Assembly (NCBI GenBank): GCA_003169975.1
Contig: PNAA01000033.1
Location: forward strand, 1-64,000
From: Spartobacteria bacterium
GTDB lineage: Bacteria > Verrucomicrobiota > Verrucomicrobiia > Chthoniobacterales > UBA10450
Reading direction: 5' to 3'
Length of the DNA: 64,000 nt
The translations under genes and the position numbers were made by a program. Below the pieces are notes generated by a model, which saw only the letters and a program-made list of their open reading frames with translations, did not search any database and was not told where the DNA came from. Positions 32,626 to 34,761 of the stretch are shown here, in pieces; the first letter of the stretch is position 1, and each line of letters opens with the position of its first letter.

Positions 32626-33588
32626 ATGCGCATTCTTTCCGGCATCCAACCCAGCGGCGTCCTGCACATTGGCAATTACTTCGGCATGATGCGGCCGGCG
32701 ATCGTGCTCCAGGCGGAGGGTGAAGCGCTCTACTTCATTGCCGATTACCATGCCCTAACGAGTCTGCGCGCCCCGGCCGCGCTGCGGGAAAATTCGCGCC
32801 GGGTGGCGCTCGATTTCCTCGCCTGCGGGCTCGATCCCGCCCGCGCCGCGCTCTTCCGCCAGTCCGATGTCCCGCAGGTGACGGAGTTGGCCTGGATTCT
32901 CAGCACGGTGACGCCGAAGGGACTCCTGGAACGCGCTCATTCCTACAAGGACAAAGTTGCGCGCGGGCTCGCCGCCTCCGCCGGATTGTTCTCTTACCCG
33001 GTATTGATGGCGGCGGACATTCTCATTTACGACAGCGACGTGGTGCCGGTGGGGCGCGATCAAAAGCAGCACGTCGAAGTGACGCGCGACCTCGCGATCA
33101 AGATGAATGAGACCTTCGGCGAAATCCTCAAGCTGCCGGAGCCGCGGATCCACGCCCAGACCGCGACGGTGCCGGGACTCGACGGCCAGAAGATGAGCAA
33201 GAGCTACGGCAACACGATCGACATTTTTGCCGAGGAAAACGAAATGCGGAAACGGGTGATGAGCATCGTGACGGACTCGACGCCGGTGGAGGCGCCGAAG
33301 AACCCCGATGCGTCTCCCATCTGTCAGCTCTTTTCGCTCGTCGCCTCGCCGGAGGAAACGGCGGCGCTGCGCGCGGCGTTTGCCAAAGGCGGGAGTGGTT
33401 ACGGGGATTTCAAGAAGCAGCTCTTCGTTAGGCTGTGGGAGTTCTTCGCGCCGATGCGCCAGCGCCGGAACGAGATCCTCGCGCAGCCGGATTACATCGA
33501 TGCGGTGCTGGCGCAGGGCGCGGCGCGCGCCAACGCGATCGCGGATGGAGTGATGGCGCGAGTCAGGACGGCGGTCGGCCTTCGTTAG
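32626..33588 (+). CDS. trpS: Tryptophanyl-tRNA synthetase
   Basis: The 320-residue class I synthetase has the HIGH-like HIGN at 14-17 and KMSKS at 189-193, with SGIQPSGVLHIGNYFG at the start and VGRDQKQHVEVTRDLA in between. It charges tRNA-Trp. Length is normal. The TAG stop (33586-33588) is inside an iterated TCGTTAGGC motif, and two more copies lie at 32754 and 33425. GTTGAACGTTTCCC, also found before rpe, lies about 30 bases upstream of the ATG. Confidence 0.96.
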   Translation: MRILSGIQPSGVLHIGNYFGMMRPAIVLQAEGEALYFIADYHALTSLRAPAALRENSRRVALDFLACGLDPARAALFRQSDVPQVTELAWILSTVTPKGLLERAHSYKDKVARGLAASAGLFSYPVLMAADILIYDSDVVPVGRDQKQHVEVTRDLAIKMNETFGEILKLPEPRIHAQTATVPGLDGQKMSKSYGNTIDIFAEENEMRKRVMSIVTDSTPVEAPKNPDASPICQLFSLVASPEETAALRAAFAKGGSGYGDFKKQLFVRLWEFFAPMRQRRNEILAQPDYIDAVLAQGAARANAIADGVMARVRTAVGLR

Positions 33589-33609: not shown

Positions 33610-33718
33610 GGAAGTCAGGCATCCTGCCTCGCTCGGCCGGCGGGCATCCTGCCCGCCGATTCCCCGAGCCGACAGGCTGGAAGCCTGTCAGCCGAGTCAG
33701 CCAGGATGGCTGACTTCC
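33610..33718. repeat. Composite of four perfect hairpins with TCC/GGA loops
   Basis: AGGCA-TCC-TGCCT (33617-33629), CGGCGGGCA-TCC-TGCCCGCCG (33638-33658), GACAGGCT-GGA-AGCCTGTC (33671-33689) and GTCAGCCA-GGA-TGGCTGAC (33696-33714) lie in a row. The whole is bounded by GGAAGTCA (33610-33617) and its complement TGACTTCC (33711-33718). The first two loops are the complement of the last two. It separates convergent trpS and the PIN-TRAM gene and could act as a two-way terminator, but it has no T-runs and looks like a mobile or REP-like element. Confidence 0.8.
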
Positions 33719-34761
33719 TAACCGGACGCTTGCGGCTGCAAGGCGGTACGTGCTCTCGCGTTTTCCTTCAGCTCCGCGAAGATGAGGCGACCGCCCGCCG
33801 TTTGCAGCGCGCTCGAGACGACGACGGTCGCGACTTTCCCAATGTGCGGGCGCCCCTGGTTGACCACAATCATCGTCCCATCCGGCAAATAGCCGACGGC
33901 CTGATGCGGATCGCGGCCTTCCTTTAAGAGGTTCAATTCCATTTCGTCGCCCGCCACTACCACCGGCCGCAGGGCGCGTGAGAGATCACTCAGGTTGAGC
34001 ACCGGCACTTGTTGCAATCGCGCCACCTGGCAGAGCGCCTGGTCGTTCGTCAGGAGCCGCGCCTGGAGCACTTGCGCGACGCGCACCAGCCGCGCATCGA
34101 TCGGCAGTTTGCTTTCATCGAGGCCGCTGTTGTGAATCGTGAGTTCGATCTCGTGCGAGCGCTGCAATTGATTCAAAATATCCAGCCCGCGGCGGCCGCG
34201 TTCCCGCTTCGTGCCGTCGTGCGAATCAGCCAATGTCTGCAATTCACCGAGAACAAAACGCGGGACGATGAGCGACTGACTGAGGAACCCGGTGGCGCAA
34301 AGATCGGCGATGCGGCCGTCGATGATGATGTTGGTGTCGATCACCAGCGGTTCGTGTTGCGTCGTCTCGCGAGCAAAGCGCACATAGGGAATGATGAGCG
34401 AGAATTCATCCCGATTGCTCCGCATCGCGAGCATCGTGCCGAGATAGCCAAAGGCGCAGTAAACAATCAGGCGCGCGGCCCATTGCGTCGTTTCCGACTG
34501 GTAACGCAAGACCTCCGAGGCCAGGAGCAGATTGGCGAAGAAGAGCCCGAGGAGAAGACCGAGCGTGGCGGAGGAAAAGGCGCGGAGCGACAGTCCCTTG
34601 AGCAATCGATCAACGAGCACGAGCAGCAGCCCGAAAGTCAAACCAACGAGAAGCCCCGGAACCGCGTTGTCCATCGCCTCCCCCGAGACGATCGAGCCGA
34701 CCGTCGCGCAAAAGGCGATGAAGAGCACCCGCAGGAGATTGACCGTCAGCTGCGGAGTCAT
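33718..34761 (-). CDS. Membrane-anchored PIN-TRAM domain protein (YacL type)
   Basis: The 347-residue protein has about four N-terminal membrane helices (10-125), a PIN domain starting PLVIDTNIIIDGRIADLCAT with acidic residues (DTN, DGR, E in VLGELQTLAD, DAR, TND) expected to bind Mg2+, and a C-terminal TRAM RNA-binding domain (ELNLLKEGRDPHQAVGYLPDGTMIVV). It is probably a membrane-bound RNase. It is the last gene of the mla operon, 6 bases after mlaD. Its stop is in the hairpin composite. Confidence 0.88.
   Translation of the reverse strand: MTPQLTVNLLRVLFIAFCATVGSIVSGEAMDNAVPGLLVGLTFGLLLVLVDRLLKGLSLRAFSSATLGLLLGLFFANLLLASEVLRYQSETTQWAARLIVYCAFGYLGTMLAMRSNRDEFSLIIPYVRFARETTQHEPLVIDTNIIIDGRIADLCATGFLSQSLIVPRFVLGELQTLADSHDGTKRERGRRGLDILNQLQRSHEIELTIHNSGLDESKLPIDARLVRVAQVLQARLLTNDQALCQVARLQQVPVLNLSDLSRALRPVVVAGDEMELNLLKEGRDPHQAVGYLPDGTMIVVNQGRPHIGKVATVVVSSALQTAGGRLIFAELKENARARTALQPQASG

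Follow-up and report, generated by a model that had tools for sequence, protein, structure and literature searches.

A GGAA-tagged REP doublet in a Spartobacteria genome and a RAYT transposase read in frame within carB

Introduction

The closest described systems are the REPINs and RAYTs of Pseudomonas fluorescens SBW25, reported in PMC3116915 as inverted doublets of short palindromes lying outside genes, with each type linked to a RAYT that this repeat flanks. The GTAG/CGTC REPs, which include those of the verrucomicrobium Opitutus terrae, form inverted dimers in convergent and co-directional spacers, and PMC3733652 already reports REPs in Opitutus, REPs within coding genes and stop codons supplied by repeat ends. 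The TnpAREP/REP pairs of PMC8266576, whose activity was tested in vitro, combine an HUH enzyme with a single-stranded REP hairpin and its preceding motif, and enzyme and repeat are described there as co-evolving. A modelling study, PMC8049555, describes RAYTs as single-copy and vertically inherited and takes insertion into genes to be destructive. In a classification of Y1 proteins, PMC6006769, unexpectedly long members are described as discarded, being taken as fusions or annotation errors. In the titles and abstract openings of the literature surveyed, drawn mostly from outside subscription journals, RAYT genes in frame in housekeeping genes were unreported.

Inteins are in-frame occupants of conserved genes. 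They are found at one recurrent site, have a patchy distribution, carry a nuclease domain and have trees that conflict with those of their host genes.

The window examined here is a stretch of 64,000 nucleotides from a Spartobacteria bacterium. An initial annotation, made from its letters, had pointed to a 109-nt composite of four hairpins and had proposed a REP/BIME-like or miniature mobile element between convergent genes.

Results

A head-to-head pair of hairpin units

The element occupies positions 33610-33718 and consists of two 49-nt units placed head to head, each with a GGAA tag and two hairpins. A hairpin scan of this region found exactly the four perfect, disjoint stems with 3-nt loops that the initial annotation had described. 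The loops of the two halves are complementary (TCC and TCC on the left, GGA and GGA on the right), and the bounding octamers GGAAGTCA and TGACTTCC lie at the two ends as written there. The convergent setting was also confirmed, with trpS ending at 33588 on the plus strand, the PIN-domain gene ending at 33718 on the minus strand and the element in the spacer; base 33718 is common to the element and the TAG stop codon of the PIN gene. In the list below, R2 is a covariance model of half the element (49 nt, 18 pairs) and A3 is an alignment of 25 pairs from this genome and its relatives.

32626..33588, plus strand: flanking gene trpS, named by eye from its translation (orthologues by tblastn)
33610..33658, plus strand: left 49-nt unit, GGAA tag with hairpins 1 and 2 (R2 match 69.6 bits, E 1.3e-11)
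33617..33629, plus strand: hairpin 1, 5 bp, loop TCC (hairpin scan; helix 1 covariation)
33638..33658, plus strand: hairpin 2, 9 bp, loop TCC (hairpin scan; helix 2 covariation)
33659..33669, no strand: variable spacer between the units (alignment A3)
33670..33718, minus strand: right 49-nt unit in opposite orientation, GGAA tag (as TTCC) with hairpins 4 and 3 (R2 match 73.3 bits, E 2.1e-12)
33671..33689, plus strand: hairpin 3, 8 bp, loop GGA (hairpin scan; helix 3 covariation)
33695..33715, plus strand: hairpin 4, 9 bp, loop GGA (hairpin scan; helix 4 covariation)
33718..34761, minus strand: flanking gene with a PIN domain, named by eye (orthologues by tblastn)

Four such hairpins within 109 nt were found in only 3 of 12,778 overlapping segments of the 64 kb (step of 5), all three overlapping the element, and in none of 2000 dinucleotide shuffles of the element itself. 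Its folding energy lay 5.8 s.d. below that of shuffles. The stem of hairpin 1 is longer in relatives (GTYAGNC/GNCTGAC) and has been shortened in the window copy by two substitutions. Rfam families gave sub-threshold matches only for the region, mostly to microRNA families, and these were set aside as chance matches on a long hairpin.

The repeat family in the genome

The initial annotation had advised a genome-wide search for copies and would have abandoned its reading if no others existed. The genome searched comprises 4.47 Mb in 59 contigs and is 97% complete. The element as query gave 28 matches, and R2 gave 33 at E ≤0.1, made up of 30 strong matches (61-77 bits) followed by two moderate and one weak at 47, 44 and 28 bits. 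The presence of 30 strong units in the genome removes that objection. Twenty-six of them form 13 pairs, always in plus then minus orientation with the GGAA tags outward and a short spacer between; two flank a RAYT-type HUH transposase and two are single. The tag is GGAA in 24 of the 25 rows of A3 and GGAG in the other, and the edges of the family are sharp at GGAA in this alignment. The GTAG tag at the hairpin foot, canonical for REPs, is not the tag of the window family. This is an apparently new family of GGAA-tagged REP doublets, ordinary in kind.

A RAYT in frame inside carB

Among the 11 Y1_Tnp matches in the genome, one (C23:136354-136512) sits between two units of the window repeat family, located by R2 at C23:135923 and C23:136684 and both in the same orientation (locus L068). 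The RAYT-like transposase that the initial annotation had recommended looking for is therefore present, in the REPtron arrangement of a cognate RAYT flanked by its own repeat. Its protein, P0001, scored 64.4 bits against the NCBIfam REP-transposase model NF047646, below the cut-off of 80, and 23.5 bits against Pfam Y1_Tnp, for which the cut-off is 23. Beside the other ten Y1_Tnp matches no window repeat was seen in the loci scanned. Contigs C27, C25 and C5 (two on C5; loci L069-L071) encode longer Y1_Tnp proteins of another subclass (about 314-362 aa), also with no window repeat in the loci scanned.

This RAYT has no gene of its own and is read in frame within carB as part of a single 1339-residue reading, P0002, both sides of which match models of the carbamoyl-phosphate synthase large subunit. 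It is the only carB match in the genome. Reading of the sequence from the end of the CarB part to just past the first conserved RAYT strand found no in-frame ATG, GTG or TTG, so the RAYT of this genome is probably not produced on its own but solely within CarB. Pfam matches of P0002 at E 0.001 included no intein family and, with no splicing domain in CarB-RAYT, the insert probably stays in the protein. A further single unit lies at the 3' end of carB (C23:138517), where it supplies the stop codon (GGA AGT TAG).

A fold was predicted for the 451-residue CarB-RAYT of a relative (L259, 34 rows), a different protein from that of the genome studied here. The mean pLDDT was 72.5, with values of mostly 80-98 in the RAYT part (about residues 110-310) and below 50 where the chain is encoded by the repeat (residues 73-98 and 317-330). 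Fold comparison paired the leading part with carbamoyl-phosphate synthetase and the RAYT part best with PDB entry 4er8, in which a RAYT is bound to a REP hairpin (E 2.7e-5, Z 13.7, rmsd 2.9, 133 aligned). At the sequence level the RAYT had no PDB match at E 0.1. The model fits a RAYT forming a separate domain on flexible linkers, with an overall pTM of 0.49 that does not fix the placement of the domains.

The carB site in relatives

Comparison of 32 carB loci found a RAYT in frame at one common site in 15 (G000, G002, G003, G007, G008, G018, G021, G024, G033, G039, G040, G042, G045, G048 and G050) and none in 17. Aligned to 1bxr, the site falls in E. coli CarB between about residues 477 and 489, and all 15 carB-RAYTs keep the HUH histidines and the catalytic tyrosine unchanged. 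Three of the 17 have further features: in G004 contig ends divide carB, whose N half lies with a RAYT on a separate contig; G020 (L147) has the repeat and a short RAYT remnant in frame in carB, which is possibly an intermediate in the loss of RAYT from this site; and G001 has a lone unit at carB (R2 45.1 bits). In the empty-looking alleles of G010 and G017 traces of the repeat were suspected by eye, and R2 gave no match.

It might be supposed that CarB has long had the RAYT as a domain, passed on vertically and serving the host, and that the repeats dispersed in the genome do no more than bind the RAYT. The position of the RAYT is identical in all carriers, other RAYTs are described as vertically inherited in PMC8049555, and it is under purifying selection, with a dN/dS between G000 and G002 of 0.096 for RAYT and 0.06 for CarB. 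Median values were 0.134 for RAYT (23 pairs) and 0.071 for CarB (76 pairs), with synonymous sites near saturation. However, such a domain is absent from 17 of 32 carB loci, and its occupancy on the CarB tree takes 10 changes, hardly below the 10.9 averaged over shuffled labels (197 of the 500 shufflings needed no more, with G004 scored as empty). The protein family is also found in many unrelated hosts, and the RAYT and CarB trees disagree. G048 groups with G050 in the RAYT tree (99/94) and with G042 in the CarB tree (100/98), where G050 is placed with G018 and G024 (100/100); G045 groups with the G000 group in the RAYT tree (97/95) and with G039 in the CarB tree (99/96). For clades chosen after the trees had been seen, three CarB clades were rejected by the RAYT data (p 0.0016, 0.00016 and 0.0023) and two RAYT clades by the CarB data (p 9.7e-45 and 7.7e-102). 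Vertical descent as a CarB domain is thus unlikely.

The conflict between the trees indicates that RAYTs have apparently arrived repeatedly at one carB site; an alternative is that old copies were lost and that exchange took place among paralogues. By eye, the tag was GGA[A/G]GT[C/T]AG in G000, G002, G003, G018, G024, G042 and G045, GGAACA[C/T]AG in G048 and G050, and GTAAC[A/T]CAG in G021, G033 and G040. The repeat tag tracks the RAYT clade and not the CarB clade, which indicates that the RAYT travels with its repeat and separately from the host gene. The DNA within 180 bases of the insert goes mostly with the CarB relatives and not with the RAYT relatives (G048, G050 and G045). Homologous replacement of whole carB alleles was rejected as the route of transfer, since the nearby DNA mostly follows the CarB kin in these three cases, although the contrast is modest throughout and slight for G050. 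Transfer may thus have gone through short tracts or through an exchange between the flanking repeats.

Structure and probable mobility of the window copy

The orthologous spacer between trpS and the PIN gene was readable in seven related genomes (G001, G002, G003, G004, G005, G007 and G018; for G002 and G005 the end of one flanking gene was identified by eye), and the element was absent from all seven. The best R2 scores at these loci were ≤11.7 bits, as against 69.6 and 73.3 for the window units. The element must then have been gained in its own lineage or lost several times. In G005 the spacer contains a different palindrome with the tag GTAG (L110, near 2530-2575), so the same spacer has taken another repeat type.

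The hairpins could alternatively form a device acting at the RNA level, a two-way terminator or a stabiliser of mRNA 3' ends, selected in place and immobile. Their fold is stable, and none of the 15 places examined (13 pairs and 2 singles) lies within a predicted gene, the units flanking the carB RAYT being the exception to this extragenic rule. Six of the places are convergent, nine co-directional and none divergent, and at ten the element runs into the 3' end of a neighbouring ORF, whose stop codon it often supplies. An immobile device is hard to square with a single sequence family, its edges sharp at GGAA, at 13 paired and 4 single places, with its absence from all seven orthologous sites and with a transposase flanked by two copies; nor does a T-run follow the element's stems. 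Such a device is judged quite improbable, while a secondary RNA role alongside mobility is possible.

In A3 the four local hairpins gave a covariation score of 0.341 versus 0.133 when shuffled, and 106 compensatory cells versus 32 by shuffling and at most 16 with slid partners. The minimum-energy fold of the window copy is a long form joining both ends, of the kind that a REPIN doublet is expected to take, and this end-to-end hairpin scored 0.107 versus 0.089, a value reached by 19 of 500 shuffles. Covariation is thus present in the local hairpins and not clearly in the long pairing, indicating that the short hairpins of each unit are the conserved objects. Covariation does not back the view that one long hairpin is what is conserved.

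Target duplications, a check also proposed in the initial annotation, were sought as direct repeats of 2-9 bases abutting the 13 pairs of this genome, and none of the 13 had them. Counting only flanking direct repeats of at least 3 bases, none was found at these 13 pairs or at 11 pairs from relatives. Such an absence is expected for REP-type movement and not for a classical MITE. A classical MITE, with GGAAGTCA as its terminal inverted repeats and a DDE transposase acting on double-stranded DNA as its mover, would agree with short inverted ends and an internal spacer but not with the missing direct repeats, the covariation of the local hairpins or the HUH type of the flanking transposase, and is very improbable. 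The same HUH enzyme led to the setting aside of an integron attC or group I intron.

The proposal of a REP/BIME-like element was correct, as seen from the paired units, the other copies and the RAYT flanked by the same repeat, and 'miniature mobile element' holds in the REPIN sense, without target duplications. Judging from these sequence comparisons, the element has probably moved.

Repeat load across genomes

R2 matches were present in 30 of 58 genomes, including the one studied, with a maximum of 65 per genome. The 16 genomes with a carB-RAYT, G004 being counted among them, contained 4-65 units versus 0-8 in the 16 without (p 2.7e-6; G005, from which carB was not recovered, was left out). 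When kinship was controlled there were about 3 independent pairs, of which 2.7 went the expected way, and by itself this lacks significance. G005 is an exception to the load pattern, having 35 units. Its carB is poorly recovered from the assembly, in which a RAYT of the carB-RAYT clade was not found.

In-frame RAYTs in other genes and phyla

A search of the phylum found P0001-like RAYTs in at least 105 of 387 genomes. Fifty-seven RAYT loci were fetched, and as these were picked for long frames the survey gives no unbiased rate of in-frame residence. In all 57 the RAYT was in an open frame of at least 491 aa, and in 52 at least 48 residues were present on both sides. Hosts recognised by eye, with one site each, were leuS (4 genomes; L184, L189, L192 and L198), priA (4), ispG (2), tsaC (2) and Eco57I-type restriction genes (7), and L219 appeared by eye to have a RAYT in carB of another order of the class. 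Profile libraries named 22 of 24 in-frame RAYT proteins, leaving L236 and L252 without a name. The hosts so named include leuS, priA, ispG, clpB, valS (2), carB, xseA and hypF, together with metH, diphosphomevalonate decarboxylase, hsdR, Eco57I-type, radical SAM, MgsA and others. HsdR-type restriction genes seemingly share one RAYT site (L242, L248, L254, L267 and L180) in carriers from Verrucomicrobia, Flavobacteriales, Chlorobiaceae and Methylomirabilis, with hsdR named by profile only in L242, L248 and L267.

A scan of named genome contigs placed 38 of the best 80 database relatives in frames of at least 450 aa. Among them are records that carry no MAG label (Pontiellaceae bacterium B12227 and Chloroflexales bacterium ZM16-3) and other phyla. 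In B12227 the host of the in-frame RAYT is a radical-SAM gene. The hairpin tag beside 92 in-frame RAYTs was GTAG in 23, GTGG in 19, GGAG in 13 and GGAA in 11. As GTAG is the commonest, many of these repeats are REPs in the ordinary sense.

Discussion

The window element is best explained as a REP doublet of the REPIN/BIME type and a non-autonomous passenger of the RAYT that is in frame in the genome's only carB, with a probability of roughly 0.8. The RAYT would then be active, would mobilise the doublets in trans and would be fused to a working CarB. The hairpins of a unit would fold while the DNA is single-stranded, and the RAYT, with its HUH histidines and catalytic tyrosine intact, would recognise tag and hairpin, cleave, and copy or move the doublet into new single-stranded targets. 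The surviving copies would be those landing just behind stop codons. The RAYT itself would be translated as a part of CarB, joined to it through flexible linkers encoded by the repeat. Against this explanation are the GGAA tag, the NF047646 score below its cut-off, the kinship-controlled load and G005, which has 35 units and in whose assembly no RAYT of this clade was found. Another of the ten Y1_Tnp matches might act instead of the carB-RAYT.

The wider survey prompts a tentative proposal, which we consider more doubtful than probable, that in-frame REPtrons are homing, non-splicing protein inserts. RAYTs would invade conserved genes (carB, leuS, priA, ispG and others) at a single permissive site, would be translated as part of the host protein via repeat-encoded linkers and would be kept because only clean loss is harmless. 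They would spread horizontally into empty sites and feed genome-wide REPINs such as the window element.

The carB-RAYT bears on the open question of how RAYTs and their repeats persist. Most deletions or frameshifts cannot remove a RAYT that is in frame in an indispensable gene, and the host provides its expression; the tree conflict suggests that the seat in carB has been taken repeatedly. Because a single family contains carB alleles that are empty, occupied or scarred, the persistence of RAYTs is directly testable. Many CarB, LeuS, PriA and restriction proteins also carry a transposase domain. What is not ordinary here is a RAYT in frame inside carB, apparently arriving there repeatedly.

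The carB-RAYT resembles the inteins in being in frame, at a recurrent single site and patchily distributed, and in having a nuclease domain and a tree in conflict with that of its host, and differs from them in that a splicing domain was not found. The Rickettsia palindromic elements, as outlined in the background of PMC3733652, are likewise palindromic repeats read in frame in proteins; they have no transposase gene, whereas here a whole RAYT is in frame and the 15 dispersed copies examined in this genome lie outside genes. The TnpAREP/REP pairs of PMC8266576 share the HUH enzyme, the REP hairpin with its preceding motif and the co-evolution of enzyme and repeat, and are set apart by their in vitro activity, the present system being known from its sequence, and by a different tag and host arrangement. 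With the GTAG/CGTC REPs of PMC3733652 the window family has in common a verrucomicrobial host, inverted dimers, convergent and co-directional spacers and stop codons supplied by the repeat; that paper reports REPs, but seemingly no RAYT genes, inside other genes, and here the tag is GGAA and the RAYT gene itself is inside another gene. The closest likeness is to the REPINs and RAYTs of SBW25 as presented in PMC3116915, with the same extragenic inverted doublets and the same RAYT flanked by cognate repeat, but here there are two hairpins per unit, a GGAA tag and a RAYT inside a metabolic gene with whose tree its own conflicts.
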